Positions 15,637-20,779 of a stretch of DNA of 64,000 nucleotides are shown piece by piece. Each line of letters opens with the position of its first letter. Position 1 is the stretch's first letter. Below the pieces are notes generated by a model. The model saw nothing but the letters and a program-made list of their open reading frames with translations, was not told the DNA's origin and did no database searches. A program made the position numbers and the translations under genes. Source of the stretch: an uncultured Rhodopila sp. (GTDB lineage Bacteria > Pseudomonadota > Alphaproteobacteria > Acetobacterales > Acetobacteraceae); the NCBI GenBank assembly GCA_903851415.1, contig CAINOE010000022.1:1-64000 (forward strand). Direction: 5' to 3'.

Positions 15637-15644
15637 GGGCATGG
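15637..15644. repeat. Left target-site duplication of the 3.8-kb element
   Basis: GGGCATGG lies immediately outside the left inverted repeat and is repeated exactly at 19443-19450 immediately outside the right one. Direct repeats of eight bases at both borders are the mark of transposition. Two further Cs match on the left side of each copy, so the exact border is ambiguous by up to two bases. Confidence 0.85.
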
Positions 15645-15664
15645 GGTAGTGGGTCAGTATGAAA
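15645..15664 (+). repeat. Left terminal inverted repeat
   Basis: GGTAGTGGGTCAGTATGAAA, matching the complement of 19423-19442 at 19 of 20 positions. It marks the left end of the mobile element. Confidence 0.8.
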
Positions 15665-15727
15665 AAAGAGATTGACGCGGTAGGAAAATAAGGGTACAGG
15701 AGTCTAATTTCCTGATAGGAGCGTTAC

Positions 15728-15937
15728 GTGAGCTTTGTACAACGTGAGATAGACCGGCTACATGGTGCGCTTGTCGCCGAAGGTGATGGTGACCGTCGAG
15801 CGGCACTCTACGCCGCTCGACAAGCCCTTGAGTGGGCGATTGAACCCACTGGGGTTCAATCGCCCTTCGATTTGGTTATGGGCACTCAGGCAAGCTCAGA
15901 AGATTGTTCGGCGCATAACCATCCGCCTGAGTTTTGA
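15728..15937 (+). CDS. Small hypothetical protein (MSFVQREIDR type)
   Basis: A 69-residue protein starting at GTG with AGGAG a few bases upstream. The sequence MSFVQREIDRLHGALV and YAARQALEWAIEPTG looks like a genuine small helical protein, and I believe similar hypothetical proteins exist in other proteobacteria, but no function is known. Two perfect hairpins (15795-15821 and 15834-15865) lie inside the coding region. The 3' end overlaps the convergent DUF3892 gene by about 60 bases. It is the leftmost cargo gene of the element. Confidence 0.55.
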   Translation: MSFVQREIDRLHGALVAEGDGDRRAALYAARQALEWAIEPTGVQSPFDLVMGTQASSEDCSAHNHPPEF

Positions 15938-16169
15938 GATATTTTCGCCCTTCATGCGGGGCGACCACAACGTCAACCTCGCGACCGTTGACGCTGACGT
16001 AAAAATCCCATTCGTGGGTTTCGACAGCGCGGATTGCGCGCTCCTCGTCGAGGTACCACCGAGCGGTCTCGCTGCCGGGCGGATTTATCCCGCCGATGCC
16101 CTGTATCCGTTCGTGGGGATTTGTCCGATCGCGCTTTCGAATGCAACTAACCCTAACGCGTTGAGCCAT
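15876..16169 (-). CDS. DUF3892 domain protein
   Basis: A 97-residue protein matching the DUF3892 pattern: an N-terminal RVRVSCIRKRDR strand, a central IQGIGGINPPG segment, HEWDFYVSVNGREVDVVVA, and the ending GRKYLKTQADGYAPNNLLSLPEC that is the most conserved part of the family. Translation is taken from the ATG for MAQRVRV; the frame continues upstream without a convincing start. DUF3892 proteins are small, often encoded in accessory DNA, and have no established function. Here it is cargo of the 3.8-kb element. Confidence 0.75.
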   Translation of the reverse strand: MAQRVRVSCIRKRDRTNPHERIQGIGGINPPGSETARWYLDEERAIRAVETHEWDFYVSVNGREVDVVVAPHEGRKYLKTQADGYAPNNLLSLPECP

Positions 16170-16290
16170 ATTGGAGATTCTTTCATAGAGCCAAAGAAAC
16201 CGACTTGACCGACGCGATTCGGAGGCCCTATACAGGGTTGCCACTACCACGGTCCGCAACCGGTTCCAACGAGTGCGGATCACCGCGAAG

Positions 16291-16309
16291 CCGGGGTTGC
16301 GACCCCCGG
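16291..16309. terminator. GC-rich hairpin upstream of DUF3892
   Basis: CCGGGG (16291-16296) and CCCCGG (16304-16309) pair perfectly around a seven-base loop and are followed on the plus strand by TTTCGTTTCG. It could end plus-strand transcription or act as a leader structure for the minus-strand DUF3892 gene. No perfect T-run follows, so this is a weak terminator call. Confidence 0.35.
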
Positions 16310-16479
16310 TTTCGTTTCGCGGCACAGATCAGTGATGATAATTGAAGAACGCGCAGGAGTCGGCGCAACCAGAATCTTGGGTTGCGGCAAAAAAAGACTC
16401 TCACCCATTAGTTGTAATCAGCATACCTTAACCGGCGGCGATTCGCCTAGCCCCGAAACGCACGAAGGCGTGATGTGGG

Positions 16480-17322
16480 TTATTGCGCAGCCTCCCAATC
16501 CTCCAGCACCGCCACCATATCAGCCAGCTCCCAAAGCTTCGTGGTCACGCCCGCCGCCATCGCTGGCGTGCAACGAAGCGTCTGGTGGATGCGGACGAAG
16601 TTGTAATGCATTAGGTGGATGGCGACCGAATGCGCATGGTTCTCGGCCTTCTTTGAAAAAGCGTTCGTCAGGCGGGTGAACCGGCGATTGCCCATGCGGG
16701 TTGTCAGGTTGGCGCGCTCAACATAGCTGGTGCTGATGTGCGCCGGGTCGGGGCGCCCTTCCACCCGCTCCTTCTTGGCGCCCATGCACGGAGCCGGGCT
16801 GTAGCGACCCGGCGCAACGCCCGCATCGCCATAGATTTTGATCAACACGGCGTAGTCGATATCGGCGCCGAAGGACTGTTCCACCGCTTCCAGATAGGGC
16901 TTGTGGCCGTCGCTGGTCAGTTGCACGCGGTTCGCGAGGCGTGACGCCAGATCGCCGATGAACTCGAATGCCGCGTCGCTGTCGCGCTTCCCGACCTTAA
17001 AAGAGGGGATCAGCTTCGTATCCGCGTCGATCGCCATCCACGTCCAGATGTCGCCAGCGCCGGCCGGTGCGGCCTTGGCGGTCGGTGCGTTCTTGGCCTT
17101 GGCATAGACGAACGCCCAAATCTCATCGACTTGTAGCCGCTTGCAAGTCAGGTTCCGCATGGCGCGGTCCTGATAGTCCGAGAAAGCTTCTCCCGCGTCT
17201 TCCAGCAGTTTGACGATAGTGTTCTTGCTGGCGCCCGTGATGCGGCTGATTGCGCGCATCGACATGCCCTCAACCATCAGGCCGAGGATTTGGGCGCGAT
17301 CGGTGCGGGAGAGCTTGTTCAT
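16480..17322 (-). CDS. IS1-like DDE transposase
   Basis: A 280-residue transposase of the IS1-type DDE group as found as single genes in alphaproteobacteria. The N-terminal helix-turn-helix reads KLSRTDRAQILGLM to GASKNTIVKLL. The catalytic acids are visible in LQVDEIWAFVY, LTSDGHKPYL and SYVERANLTTR. Unlike classical IS1 it is one frame, with no frameshift between two genes. The ATG at 17322 is supported by a promoter (17330-17358) so close that the message would be almost leaderless; an upstream ATG at 17358 lies inside the -35 box. No inverted repeats flank this gene alone; the only pair found encloses the whole 3.8-kb segment. Confidence 0.85.
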   Translation of the reverse strand: MNKLSRTDRAQILGLMVEGMSMRAISRITGASKNTIVKLLEDAGEAFSDYQDRAMRNLTCKRLQVDEIWAFVYAKAKNAPTAKAAPAGAGDIWTWMAIDADTKLIPSFKVGKRDSDAAFEFIGDLASRLANRVQLTSDGHKPYLEAVEQSFGADIDYAVLIKIYGDAGVAPGRYSPAPCMGAKKERVEGRPDPAHISTSYVERANLTTRMGNRRFTRLTNAFSKKAENHAHSVAIHLMHYNFVRIHQTLRCTPAMAAGVTTKLWELADMVAVLEDWEAAQ

Positions 17323-17329
17323 AGGCGTG

Positions 17330-17358
17330 GGTATATGACCCCTTATGCTTAGCGTCAA
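17330..17358 (-). promoter_or_regulatory. Transposase promoter with overlapping palindrome
   Basis: On the minus strand TTGACG (17353-17358) and TATACC (17330-17335) are 17 bases apart, directly before the transposase ATG at 17322. A perfect 8-bp inverted repeat, TTATGCTT at 17343-17350 and AAGCATAA at 17357-17364, overlaps the -35 box and could be a repressor site. Confidence 0.55.
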
Positions 17359-17367
17359 GCATAAAAG

Positions 17368-18441
17368 TCACTCGACCGCGCGAAGCGTCATTCTTGAATC
17401 GACCCTGACCGGCGGCTGGACAGGTCCAGTAAGTCCCCAAATGAGACTTTCCACCTCATCCGGCGGGAAATTAAGTTGTGTTGCTATTTCGTCCTTTGTC
17501 GTTCGTTCAGCCCACAGTTGGGCAAGCACTTTTTTCCAGACCGCAGACGTCTCGCGCTCAATCCCGACTTTTTCGGCAGTTCGATATCCGCGTCTTCCCA
17601 ACTCGATACAGGCAGATTTATAGCGCCAGTCACTTAATAGCCCGAGCGTATGCAGTCTGTATGCCATCGCCATTGCAGAAACACGCCATCGCTTCTTCGC
17701 TGCCAGGATGTCATCCACAGTGATGAACGAAGGCATCCGTGAGCGTACATCGGCGGCCGGCATCAGGAACGACGACCCAAAAGCATTTGCTTCCCGCTCA
17801 GCAATCGGAGAGCGTTGCGCTCCAACATGACGGTGAGCGACTAGATGGCAAAGCTCGTGGGCTGCGTCGAAGACGCTATGCTCAGCACTTTTGTAGGTGT
17901 TTAAGAAGACGTAGGGAGTCTCATCGCGCCAAAATGAAAAAGCGTCTACAGAAGCGGTTTGTTCAGAGAGAGAGAATACCTTAACCCCATTGACTTCAAG
18001 CAGCCCAATCATATTGCTGATTGGTTTTTCTCCCAATCCCCAATATTGTCGAAGTGTACGAGCGGCGACTTCCATATCCGTTTCATAACTTAGATCGATA
18101 AAATTCGGCTCGGGAAGCGAGAACTCACGACCTATCCAGTCGCCCAATTCGACACCGAGGGTGCCAGCAGCTATCGAGGCATCGCGTTCTCGCGCGCTCA
18201 TCTTCGTCAAATTGCGAAAGCTAACCGCGCTTGTATCAATCTCTTCTGGATCGTCACCCTCAAAGAATTCCACAGGATAACGAAGGGCCTTTGCAAGCCG
18301 GGAGATCGTTTCGGCATCAGGGGTTTCGCCATTTTCCACTCTGGAAATCGTGACGACAGAGAGGCCGGATCGCTCAGCGAGTCCTTTCCCGTTCAGTCCT
18401 CGCCGCTTTCTCGCGAGACTGAGGCGCTTGTGATTGAACAT
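17368..18441 (-). CDS. XRE regulator fused to ImmA/IrrE metallopeptidase
   Basis: A 357-residue two-domain protein. Residues 3-60 form a Cro/CI-type helix-turn-helix (LAERSGLSVVTISRVENG). Residues about 125-260 are an ImmA/IrrE-type zinc peptidase with HELCH (195-199) and the downstream EREANAFGSSFLMP segment supplying the third ligand region. A C-terminal part of about 100 residues is less conserved. Proteins of this type sense a signal and cleave a repressor, or act as the antitoxin-like partner in two-gene modules. It starts three bases after the stop of an unknown 209-residue gene, forming a tight operon, and would be the natural ligand for the operator at 19084-19132. Confidence 0.88.
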   Translation of the reverse strand: MFNHKRLSLARKRRGLNGKGLAERSGLSVVTISRVENGETPDAETISRLAKALRYPVEFFEGDDPEEIDTSAVSFRNLTKMSARERDASIAAGTLGVELGDWIGREFSLPEPNFIDLSYETDMEVAARTLRQYWGLGEKPISNMIGLLEVNGVKVFSLSEQTASVDAFSFWRDETPYVFLNTYKSAEHSVFDAAHELCHLVAHRHVGAQRSPIAEREANAFGSSFLMPAADVRSRMPSFITVDDILAAKKRWRVSAMAMAYRLHTLGLLSDWRYKSACIELGRRGYRTAEKVGIERETSAVWKKVLAQLWAERTTKDEIATQLNFPPDEVESLIWGLTGPVQPPVRVDSRMTLRAVE

Positions 18442-18444
18442 GAC

Positions 18445-19074
18445 TTAGCTAGCCTTGCGCAGAACCTGCGGATCAAAATCCATGGGTGTTTCGTCCTCAT
18501 CGAACGAACGAGATGCACCGTCGAAATCATCTCCGCTCGACAAATAAATACGATCAATAAACGCGGAAAATGTTTGATATTTCACCACGGGGCGCGAAAG
18601 CTCGACAGCCCCTTGTTCATCGACCATCAGGTAATAAAAGGCATAAGGGGACGTAGGAGCCTCTGCAAACGCGGGAAGATCGTCAAATAGCCCCTTACCC
18701 TGACTTACTTTCTCCGCGCCGCTTCCCTTCTTCGATCTGGGCACGGGGTTATGCATATCGTTACACGCGAGATCAACGTTAACAAAGCTCAAGATCACGT
18801 TCTTTGCATCGTTGCGAACGGCTTCGATGCCGTTTGGGCGATCTTGCCTCCAATGTTCGCCAACTAACTCATCCCGAAGGCCGTATATTCCACCATGATA
18901 GGAGAATGTGCCGGCAGCGTTGGCGGCGTGATAACCCGTTGCGTCGGCAGCGGCGCCAAGCGCCATTGTCCGCACCTTCAGAAGCTTTGCCCTGGTCAGA
19001 TTGAGCCGCGCCAGTTCGGGATCGACCTCCCAAGGCTCCTTTAGAATCCGCGTTAGAATTTTAGGGACGGCCAC
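18445..19074 (-). CDS. Unknown protein, first gene of the ImmA module
   Basis: A 209-residue soluble protein beginning at GTG (MAVPKILTRI) with a CAGGAG ribosome-binding site that partly overlaps the right side of the operator palindrome. It has a charged N-terminal helical region, a central segment with KNVILSFVNVDLACNDMHNP, and an acidic C-terminus (SFDEDETPMDFDPQ). No family, signal peptide or membrane helix is recognised. Pairing with an XRE-ImmA gene under a palindromic operator is the layout of toxin-antitoxin or phage-response modules, so this could be the effector or the protein that the peptidase acts on. Base composition is clearly less GC-rich than in the core genes. Confidence 0.75.
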   Translation of the reverse strand: MAVPKILTRILKEPWEVDPELARLNLTRAKLLKVRTMALGAAADATGYHAANAAGTFSYHGGIYGLRDELVGEHWRQDRPNGIEAVRNDAKNVILSFVNVDLACNDMHNPVPRSKKGSGAEKVSQGKGLFDDLPAFAEAPTSPYAFYYLMVDEQGAVELSRPVVKYQTFSAFIDRIYLSSGDDFDGASRSFDEDETPMDFDPQVLRKAS

Positions 19075-19083
19075 TACATGCTC

Positions 19084-19132
19084 CTGATAAGATTTTCACC
19101 CATACCGTAGGGTCGAAAATCTTATCAGTCAA
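19084..19132 (-). promoter_or_regulatory. Palindromic operator and promoter of the ImmA module
   Basis: A perfect 14-bp inverted repeat, CTGATAAGATTTTC (19084-19097) and GAAAATCTTATCAG (19115-19128), is extended inward by ACCC and GGGT. Minus-strand TTGACT (19127-19132) and a weak -10 TACGGT (19104-19109) are 17 bases apart, so the arms bracket the -10 region. This is the geometry of an autorepressed XRE operon. It could also form a strong stem that terminates the upstream 75-residue gene, whose stop codon touches it. Confidence 0.65.
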
Positions 19133-19356
19133 CTATTTTTTTCCCACCGCTTCGCCGCCGCCTTCCGAGCAATCTCCGCCCGCCGCTCCGGCGCCATAGC
19201 CGAGGCGCGGGCCGCTCCGCCCTTCTTCCCCATCGCCGCCGCGCCAGCGTCCTTCCCGTCGTCAACCGCGTCGGGAGCCTGGCCGGTCATGATGTCCACC
19301 ATCAGCTTGCCGAGTTGGACGGGATCGCGGGGGCGGGGGGTGCGTTTGGTTGCCAT
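19129..19356 (-). CDS. Small basic KGG-type hypothetical protein
   Basis: A 75-residue protein, MATKRTPRPRDPVQLGKLMVDIMTG and onward, with a C-terminal half rich in Ala, Lys and Arg (GKKGGAARASAMAPERRAEIARKAAAKRWEK). This pattern recurs in small proteins of many proteobacteria, often beside accessory genes, and may bind nucleic acid, but nothing is established. Its stop codon abuts the operator palindrome of the ImmA module. It is the last cargo gene before the right end of the element. Confidence 0.6.
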   Translation of the reverse strand: MATKRTPRPRDPVQLGKLMVDIMTGQAPDAVDDGKDAGAAAMGKKGGAARASAMAPERRAEIARKAAAKRWEKNS

Positions 19357-19422
19357 GCGTGAGAGTATGCCATGATGCGGGCGGGGTTGCACGTCTGGCA
19401 GATAGGAAAGGAATCTAGCCGA

Positions 19423-19442
19423 TTTCAAACTGACCCACTACC
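19423..19442 (-). repeat. Right terminal inverted repeat
   Basis: TTTCAAACTGACCCACTACC, the complement of 15645-15664 with one mismatch. It marks the right end of the mobile element. Confidence 0.8.
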
Positions 19443-19450
19443 GGGCATGG
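19443..19450. repeat. Right target-site duplication of the 3.8-kb element
   Basis: GGGCATGG, identical to 15637-15644 at the other border. The fusion gene starts about 75 bases further on. Confidence 0.85.
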
Positions 19451-19525
19451 CTGCGCGTGGCGGGAAGTCGACTGTTGCGGTATCTTTCGGCTCCGGAGGC
19501 TGATTTTCTTTTTCGGGAATGCAGA

Positions 19526-20779
19526 ATGGCCGGCGTGCGGACTAGCCAGACACACCCGCTTCAGATCGCGGACGTGCGTGCAAGCCCCTCGCATGGGCGG
19601 ATCGGGATCACGTTCTGTCCCGGCAAGCATGACAATGCCGCGGCAACCGGGGCCTGGGCGCGCGATCTTGCGGCGGATCTCGGCGTCATCAACGCATGGG
19701 GCGCGCGTCTGGTGCTGACGCTGGTCGAGCCAGCCGAACTCGTTGCGCTCAAGGTGCCCAATCTCGGCGCGGAAATCCGAGGCATGGGGCTCGATTGGCG
19801 ACATTTGCCCATCGCGGATTACTCTGTTCCGGCCGAGGCATTCGAGAAGCAATGGGAGACGCATGGCCGGGACATCCGCGCGCTGCTGCGCAGCGGCGCC
19901 GATGTGCTTGTGCATTGCAAGGGCGGCCTTGGCCGGGCCGGCATGATGGCCGCCCGGCTTCTCGTCGAATTGGGCATGGCACCCGACCAGGCCATCCGGG
20001 ACGTTCGCCGGGCGCGCAAAGGCGCGATCGAGACACCGGCGCAGCTCGCGCTGGTCCGGCGGACGAAAGCCATCCTCGCCCTGGATGCCCCCGGGGATCC
20101 CCTGGTCATCGACACGGCGACGATGCAGAAGGTCGGCCGGCAGATGGGAACCAATCCGGGTGGCGTCTATCAGGACGAGAACGGCCGGCGGTTCTACGTG
20201 AAGTCGCTGGAATCGCCCGCGCACGCGCGCAACGAGATCATTGCGGCGAAACTCTATCAACTGGCCGGGGCGCCGACGCTGACCTATGTGAATGCGAAGC
20301 AGCCAAACCAGATCGCGACCGATTTTATCGAGCTTGAGAAGAAGCGGATATCGCAACTCAGCGGCAACGAGCGCAGACAGGCGCAGCACTGGCTCGGTGT
20401 GCACGCATGGACAGCCAACTGGGATGCAGCCGGATTCGACGGCGATAATCAGGGCGTCGCCAAAGGGGTGGTCATAACGCTCGACGTCGGGGGCGCGATG
20501 GAGTTTCGGGCGCAGGGAGACCCGAAGGGCAAAGCCTTCGGCGCGTGCGTCCGCGAGATCGACACGCTGCGCAACGATGCCGACAATCCTCACGCGACAC
20601 GGCTTTTCGGCGACATGACCGCTGCCGAGATCGATAAGGCTGTCGCAGTGGTGACGCGCATTCCCGACGCCGAGATACGGAAAGTCATCGCCGGGAATGG
20701 CGGCAGCAGCGCGCTTGCGGAAAAGATGATCGCGCGCAAGACCGATATGGCAGAGCGTTCAACCCGGGCAAACCGGTAG
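19526..20779 (+). CDS. Dual-specificity-phosphatase / kinase-like fusion protein
   Basis: A 417-residue two-domain protein. Residues about 10-185 form a cysteine phosphatase of the dual-specificity type: general acid in HLPIADYSVP (Asp98) and the CX5R loop VHCKGGLGRAGM (Cys131, Arg137). Residues about 200-350 have the order of motifs seen in HipA- or PI3K-like kinases: GGVYQDENGRRFYVK (glycine strand and Lys226), ARNEIIAAKLY (Glu237), HAWTANWDAAGFDGDN (Asn298, Asp300, Asn308) and ITLDVGGAMEFR (Asp320). It is not a match I can name with certainty. The ATG at 19526 is preferred; a GTG at 19457 would add 23 residues. The gene starts 75 bases from the right end of the transposon, which may have altered its promoter. 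Confidence 0.72.
   Translation: MAGVRTSQTHPLQIADVRASPSHGRIGITFCPGKHDNAAATGAWARDLAADLGVINAWGARLVLTLVEPAELVALKVPNLGAEIRGMGLDWRHLPIADYSVPAEAFEKQWETHGRDIRALLRSGADVLVHCKGGLGRAGMMAARLLVELGMAPDQAIRDVRRARKGAIETPAQLALVRRTKAILALDAPGDPLVIDTATMQKVGRQMGTNPGGVYQDENGRRFYVKSLESPAHARNEIIAAKLYQLAGAPTLTYVNAKQPNQIATDFIELEKKRISQLSGNERRQAQHWLGVHAWTANWDAAGFDGDNQGVAKGVVITLDVGGAMEFRAQGDPKGKAFGACVREIDTLRNDADNPHATRLFGDMTAAEIDKAVAVVTRIPDAEIRKVIAGNGGSSALAEKMIARKTDMAERSTRANR

Follow-up and report, generated by a model that had tools for sequence, protein, structure and literature searches.

An IS1-related transposon carrying a RosmerTA pair in an uncultured Rhodopila, and its cargo-bearing relatives

Classical insertion sequences (IS) of the IS1 family are about 0.7-1.2 kb long and carry no cargo; they have ends of the form GGnnnTG, duplicate 8-9 bp of target DNA, and encode their transposase in an insA/insB frameshift arrangement with 24 residues between the second D and the E. 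The locus described here raises the question of whether a transposase related to this family can move a much larger unit with passenger genes. It lies in a 64,000-nucleotide stretch of DNA from an uncultured Rhodopila sp. (assembly GCA_903851415.1, contig CAINOE010000022.1, positions 1 to 64,000), which we call the window, and consists of an IS1-like transposase gene and further genes enclosed by inverted repeats, at 15645-19442 (the window element). A preliminary description, made from the sequence alone, had suggested an unusual passenger-carrying IS1-like member; this was supported and proved too cautious, as we found copies with differing cargo and empty sites on plasmids. We conclude that 15645-19442 is very probably a complete unit transposon of an IS1-related family. 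Its features are listed below, where slot A is the cargo position between the small gene and the transposase gene and slot B is that between the transposase gene and the right end (aa, amino acids; ORF, open reading frame).

15637..15644, no strand: target-site duplication copy 1 (GGGCATGG), read from the sequence
15645..15666, no strand: terminal inverted repeat, right end when the transposase is read forward
15876..16175, minus strand: DUF3892 gene, slot B cargo (Pfam PF13031, 3.6e-17)
16480..17325, minus strand: IS1-like single-ORF DDE transposase, 281 aa (Pfam, NCBIfam, alignment)
17368..18441, minus strand: RmrA, antitoxin of RosmerTA, helix-turn-helix (HTH) + ImmA/IrrE (M78), 357 aa, slot A
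18445..19074, minus strand: RmrT, toxin of RosmerTA, 209 aa, directly upstream of rmrA
19084..19128, no strand: near-palindrome of 45 bp with 14-bp arms, between the small gene and the rmrT start (self-complementary match)
19129..19356, minus strand: small core protein, 75 aa, second core gene of the family (conserved in related elements; three helices predicted)
19421..19442, no strand: terminal inverted repeat, left end, adjoining the small gene
19443..19450, no strand: target-site duplication copy 2 (GGGCATGG), exact 8-bp match to copy 1

The boundaries agree with those given in the preliminary description. The 20-bp inverted repeats with one mismatch match at 19 of 20 bases (15645-15664 versus 19423-19442; 19 of 22 over 15645-15666 versus 19421-19442), and the exact 8-bp direct repeats stand at both flanks (15637-15644 and 19443-19450). 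The 14-bp end sequence has exactly 2 copies in the window and no other at up to 2 mismatches; shuffled windows contained a mean of 0.10 matches, and two matches were seen in 0/100. The interior is indeed poorer in GC than the host DNA (0.51-0.63 in 500-bp windows versus 0.62-0.75 in the nearest several kilobases), with a further dip to 0.56 outside the element, near 24.0-24.5 kb. The window element is a single copy in its own genome. The earlier count of five other genes was too generous; four are supportable besides the transposase (RmrA, RmrT, the small core gene and the DUF3892 gene). That account was also incomplete, being without the second core gene, the RosmerTA identity and the presence of cargo in every delimited relative.

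The transposase is IS1-like only remotely. It clears the cut-off of Pfam DDE_Tnp_IS1 by a small margin (24.7 versus 24.1 bits) and falls below that of NCBIfam transpos_IS1 (NF033558; E 3e-17, 63.2 bits, cut-off 100). Residues D78, D150 and E214, numbered on the 292-aa form that would begin at an alternative TTG start at 17358, are invariant across 64 aligned transposases, and we infer that they are the catalytic residues; 63 residues lie between the second D and the E, and the N-terminal HTH match is weak. The gene is a single ORF with no insA/insB-type frameshift arrangement. In 21 of 57 elements its stop falls exactly 9 bp before the right end, within the inverted repeat. Distances between transposases correlate with those between ends (Mantel r 0.284, 0/2000 permutations).

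Using the window transposase as query against one genome per species, we kept 80 of the 127 relatives found and set both ends in 52 of these 80 loci; with the window and 15 further elements from family and phylum genomes and plasmids, this gave 68 delimited elements, 7 found via the small gene and the remaining ones via the transposase. All have the same kind of ends (GGTAGTGnnTCAGTTTGAA), with the consensus GGTAGTGggTCAGTTTGAA over both ends. An exact 8-bp duplication flanks 63 of the 68, compared with 0/2613 shifted comparisons, a figure that is partly selected because the duplication helped choose the ends in most elements. The exceptions are L023, L062 and L185 (two ends, no matching duplication), L039 (one mismatch) and L076 (nine bases). 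Element length is 2194-5945 bp (median 3163.5), none of the 68 is without cargo, and GC lies below that of the element's own flanks in 67. A transposase ORF of this clade is found in 67 elements (L024 has no intact ORF) and exceeds 240 aa in 64. The further copies with both ends 2-6 kb apart that the preliminary description proposed to seek do exist, with cargo differing between them. The 28 loci of the 80 that were not counted as delimited include many cut by contig ends, and 12 of them have the small gene near the transposase; of those scanned for ends, five have room and one good end only (L034, L048, L073, L074, L079), two were excluded as having both ends and no matching duplication (L051, L052), and one has the small gene and no clear end (L069). 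The hosts named in the transposase tree span nine phyla, all cases outside Pseudomonadota being metagenome bins. Among the carriers are the named strains Methylorubrum thiocyanatum DSM 11490, Paracoccus sphaerophysae, Rhodovulum euryhalinum, Falsiroseomonas selenitidurans, Parvularcula maris and Szabonella alba, and plasmid-borne elements occur in M. loti, Acidiphilium multivorum and Hoeflea.

The plasmids supplied empty sites. M. huakuii and Mesorhizobium sp. AR07 plasmids lack the 3370-bp element found on an M. loti plasmid (L129:2796-6165); the predicted empty joint matches there at 77 and 76 of 80 bases, and the one copy of the target departs from the duplication in its final base. The 2634-bp element on an Acidiphilium plasmid (L131:3267-5900) is absent from two others, pACRY02 and JZ-6 unnamed3 (another plasmid of the same strain); the predicted joint matches at 79 of 80 bases in both, and the target copy is exact. 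These two cases show that ends, small gene, cargo and transposase were inserted there as one unit. With high confidence, we take the window element likewise to be mobile as a unit by its own transposase.

The second constant component of the family is a small protein of 70-100 aa with the consensus KRPRDxNQLAKxIVDxATG ... GRxGGxKGGxARAxxLTPExRxEIAxKAAxARW. Its gene is usually found near whichever end is farther from the transposase (in 5/57 it starts over 310 bp from the left end); in 58/59 the two genes share a strand and the small gene comes first. A separate intact small ORF (<140 aa) is found in 60 of the 68 elements; L016, L037, L056 and L080 have traces of the gene only, and in L033, L039, L054 and L077 the motif occurs mainly inside a larger cargo protein of the P63C cluster. 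Small-protein distances correlate with transposase distances (r 0.440, n 57; largest of 2000 permutations 0.208), and in the 52 delimited loci of the species-level scan all 56 small-protein matches were inside elements and 0 outside. A reverse profile search starting from the small protein found 11 places in 10 genomes besides the window's, among 299 searched, and reached a two-ended unit in 10 of the 11: six complete elements with duplication, one two-ended element without a matching duplication, and three short two-ended units with duplication and no intact transposase (817, 1342 and 425 bp); the last place is beside a single end. Shortened units of this kind, with same-type ends and an 8-bp duplication, are L189:6809-7625 (817 bp), which retains the small gene, L190:5118-6459 (1342 bp), which has a truncated transposase gene, and L191:3563-3987 (425 bp). 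A tblastn search of the small protein against plasmids gave no match, though an annotated copy exists ('histone H1', CP050295); we suspect the low-complexity filter. The AlphaFold model has three helices (pTM 0.39). We give even odds to the small protein being an accessory factor in transposition.

The cargo of the window element is a complete RosmerTA pair together with the DUF3892 gene. RmrA matches PADLOC PDLC03946 over positions 1-356 of 357 (560 bits, 3.9e-169) as well as Pfam Peptidase_M78 and HTH_3, and RmrT matches PDLC03932 over positions 4-208 of 209 (251 bits, 1.5e-75). The DUF3892 ORF runs on to 16325 and has no BLAST relative among the cargos of delimited elements. RosmerTA systems are toxin-antitoxin pairs of the ImmA type, and members have been demonstrated to protect against phage (PMC10440598); the HTH-ImmA RmrA of the window, next to RmrT, has no evident difference from them, and the pair is cargo, not carrier. 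Across the family, recognisable defence modules are present in at least 21 of the 68 elements, ten of them named via a BLAST cluster with a directly scanned member; the number is a lower bound as the cargo of 15 later elements was scanned in part. They are distributed as follows.

RmrT/RmrA: L053, L132 and the window; RmrA relative: L186
PD-Lambda-2_B type: L004, L015, L018, L040, L063, L119, L129, L185
Fic/SoFic: L016, L037, L076, L187
BglII-type endonuclease + MT-A70 methylase: L003, L047
HEC-04/OLD-type ATPase: L003, L080
PD-T4-6-like kinase: L122; PDC-S13: L031

The main cargo scan covered 107 of the 108 ORFs of at least 115 aa in the first 53 elements, one copy of the L043 dimer being omitted. 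Among the 25 listed of the 209 PADLOC families matched by these 107 proteins, single RmrA models matched up to 5, PD-Lambda-2_B 5 and SoFic 3, whereas none of the PADLOC models had matches to more than 2 of 107 flanking proteins. No defence module was recognised in the remaining 47 elements, whose recurrent cargo comprises P63C proteins (8 elements), a 430-aa family (7), AAA/nSTAND proteins (4), an SDH-type protease (3) and a 334-aa family (3). The 430-aa family (L045:8267-9541 and six other elements) has an invariant Thr2 and an AVALAADSAVT-like start and is perhaps a proteasome-like N-terminal-threonine hydrolase, an impression from the first 20 residues; its model has a mean pLDDT of 65, its structure matches were meaningless, and neither a family match nor a solved relative was found.

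Cargo is exchanged while the core remains. Slot A holds more than 250 bp in 56/57 elements (the exception is L010) and slot B in 31/57, and in 0/57 are both below this size. Between the window element and L003, which come from the same genus and have 88% identical transposases, similarity is confined to the left 300 bp (75%), the gene for the transposase (80%) and the end; their cargo is different. Among 14 further pairs, chosen by hand, 12 have no cargo DNA in common and keep core genes and ends, the exceptions being L046/L059 and L033/L039, which have some cargo in common; the three pairs among L117, L122 and L123, all from one genome, have no common cargo DNA and transposase genes that are 88-89% identical. 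Conversely, RosmerTA cargo recurs in L053, whose transposase is merely 57% identical to the window's. Ten cargo labels placed on the transposase tree need 27 changes, compared with a shuffled mean of 29.8 and a least possible number of 9. From the pair comparisons and the label changes, cargo turns over almost, not wholly, independently of its carrier.

These observations suggest how the family could work. The transposase would bind both ends and move everything between them, and the small protein might aid or regulate transposition as an end- or DNA-binding accessory. The cargo would persist through phage defence or addiction, benefiting the host or the element itself, and it could be exchanged by homologous recombination between the shared core genes, as one possible route. 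That the cargo acts in defence or addiction we consider probable. A wider proposal falls somewhat short of an even chance: that this is a distinct transposon family shuttling immune modules, with a two-subunit machine (an IS1-derived transposase and a three-helix partner) and two slots, that it exchanges defence systems across phyla, and that its recurrent cargos of no recognised kind (P63C, 430-aa, AAA/nSTAND, ClpP-like SDH protease, 334-aa) are undescribed defence systems. The speed at which defence genes pass between bacteria exceeds what most known vehicles can account for. A compact element with sharp ends and two constant genes allows its cargo to be read automatically, which makes it a ready screen for new defence systems, and it raises the questions of whether an IS1-type transposase depends on another protein for moving kilobases of cargo, and by what route cargo is exchanged while the core stays.

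We compared the family with known systems. Its inverted repeats starting GGTAGT, its 8-bp duplication and its related DDE transposase are like those of the IS1 family, and by its ends the window element (GGTAGTG and 8 bp) fits the family pattern of GGnnnTG with 8-9 bp. It is unlike IS1 elements in that its transposase scores 63.2 bits against a curated cut-off of 100, in the size and constant cargo of its relatives (2194-5945 bp with cargo in 68/68, versus about 0.7-1.2 kb without), and in its single longer ORF with 63 rather than 24 residues from the second D to the E. A Pseudanabaena locus (L134) illustrates the difference: it is a classical IS1-like element of 818 bp with ends GGTAGTCC..., an 8-bp duplication, no cargo and 26% transposase identity over the aligned part, whereas the cargo-carrying family has the small core gene. 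We found no description of this transposon family in the open-access literature searched, judged by titles and abstract openings. The nearest general notion is the transporter IS (tIS), and the nearest functional parallel is the Tn7-like transposons. The latter carry diverse innate immune and toxin-antitoxin cargo including ImmA, with known innate systems on 26% of them (Benler 2021, PMC8649781), to be set beside at least 21/68 here; the core of the window family is by contrast one short DDE transposase and one small protein in 2-6 kb. A Pfam/NCBIfam scan of the window element's genes found no Tns-type (TnsB/TnsC) family, and TniB matched 2 of the 107 cargo proteins of relatives, alongside AAA models.

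ISfinder lists a single-ORF IS1 subgroup (ISMhu11) with members to about 4.6 kb, which could hold relatives. The family might accordingly be an ordinary IS1-family tIS already catalogued there, with the small gene as a common passenger. An IS-type transposase with passenger genes between its ends is what the established tIS concept describes (PMC9330008), and the window family does have IS ends and a transposase enclosing passenger genes that would be dispensable for transposition, to judge from their replacement. Terminal inverted repeats starting GGT, the 8-bp duplication and an IS1-related DDE transposase fit as well. The family departs from a tIS in carrying cargo in all delimited members (0/68 cargo-less), in its second core gene and in its fast cargo replacement; moreover, the transposase is under the curated IS1 cut-off with 63 residues from the second D to the E, the small gene tracks the transposase whereas the cargo hardly does, and the name ISMhu11 had no match in the open-access literature searched. 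We consider this explanation unlikely, though not far-fetched. Much less credible is the in-trans alternative of the preliminary description, in which the ends are those of a different element, served by a transposase encoded elsewhere, and the IS1-like gene is a passenger. Same-end units without an intact transposase do exist (817 and 425 bp, and 1342 bp with a truncated gene), but the transposase ORF is within 67/68 delimited elements, all but 7 of the 68 having been located through it, its distances correlate with those of the ends, and its stop is 9 bp from the right end, inside the repeat, in 21/57; in addition, among the 25 listed of 53 Pfam families matched by the 107 cargo proteins, the sole other transposase model was Transposase_mut, in 1 protein. 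We rejected a transposase in trans on element content, the transposase-end distance correlation and the stop-codon position, and regard it as very improbable.

The function of the passengers and of the small protein can also be read differently. Toxin-antitoxin pairs can stabilise mobile DNA, and many recognised cargos are toxin-antitoxin-like (RosmerTA, PD-Lambda-2 type, Fic), so the cargo could consist of selfish addiction modules that secure the element's persistence in the genome and not of shared anti-phage immunity. However, the cargo also includes a BglII-type endonuclease with MT-A70 methylase, HEC-04/OLD-type ATPases and a PD-T4-6-like kinase, and phage protection is on record for RosmerTA pairs (PMC10440598); we see the addiction explanation as possible, yet on balance doubtful. 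The small protein, for its part, adjoins the cargo and resembles a stretch within P63C-domain cargo proteins, as would suit a regulator or antitoxin-like protein of the cargo. It stays while the cargo changes, however, and correlates with the transposase, and we find such a role rather improbable. Persistence of the small gene in the 817-bp unit without transposase fits neither the transposition role nor the cargo-regulator role cleanly.

Several points weigh against a mobile, two-component family of defence carriers. Mobility is known from sequence comparison and not from observed transposition, and the empty site that the preliminary description had asked for in close relatives was found for two plasmid-borne members and not for the window locus, in searches of 200 family genomes with each flank. 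These flank searches matched 38 and 34 of the 200 genomes (own included), nearly all weakly; the best right-flank match elsewhere was 80% over 1.3 kb, starting 31 bp right of the element, in a genome with no left-flank homology within the 14 kb compared, and the best left-flank match was 72% over 146 bp. Eight of the 68 elements are without a separate intact small ORF, so the small protein may be dispensable, and its model had no fold match in a structure search. 'Defence' holds for 21/68 elements, not all. The PADLOC family totals (209 in cargo, 23 in flanks) overstate the contrast, as single ATPases match many models; one L003 ATPase alone matches 138 families at a looser limit. When 40 proteins were scanned one by one with PADLOC, 12 matched and 28 did not (3, 9, 6 and 10 unmatched per batch of 10, the first batch including the small core protein). 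The cargo labels show slight clustering on the tree: 8/200 shuffles gave 27 or fewer changes. Most loci are metagenome bins, exclusively so outside Pseudomonadota. Finally, L075:9633-10880 is a possible copy without slot-A cargo, and could even be cargo-less: its small gene lies 62 bp from the transposase, one end matches at 15/19, and the contig stops 148 bp past the transposase.

One relative, L043:8115-13712, is a tandem dimer of two identical 2795-bp copies with exactly the 8-bp duplication between them, counted once; it may be a transposition by-product or an assembly error. Among 13 distant or IS1-like loci (L106, L133, L134, L192-L200, L201), the small gene was sought and not found at E 0.1, and ends with a duplication, sought in most of them, were convincing in none except L134. 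L192 and L193 have one end-like site each, and L193 and L106 are closer relatives than the other distant loci. L201, in the 321-kb genome of Brevundimonas phage Gurke, encodes an IS1-like transposase of 34% identity, and the annotation has no feature at the match; recognisable ends and the small gene were sought there and neither was found. Within the window element, the near-palindrome at 19084-19128 is a possible RmrA operator; L053 has a different palindrome at the equivalent place. To the right of the element, a dual-specificity-phosphatase-like gene (Tc-R-P, PF22785) at 19457-20779 begins 15 bp from its end, and the window element may have landed 5' of this gene.

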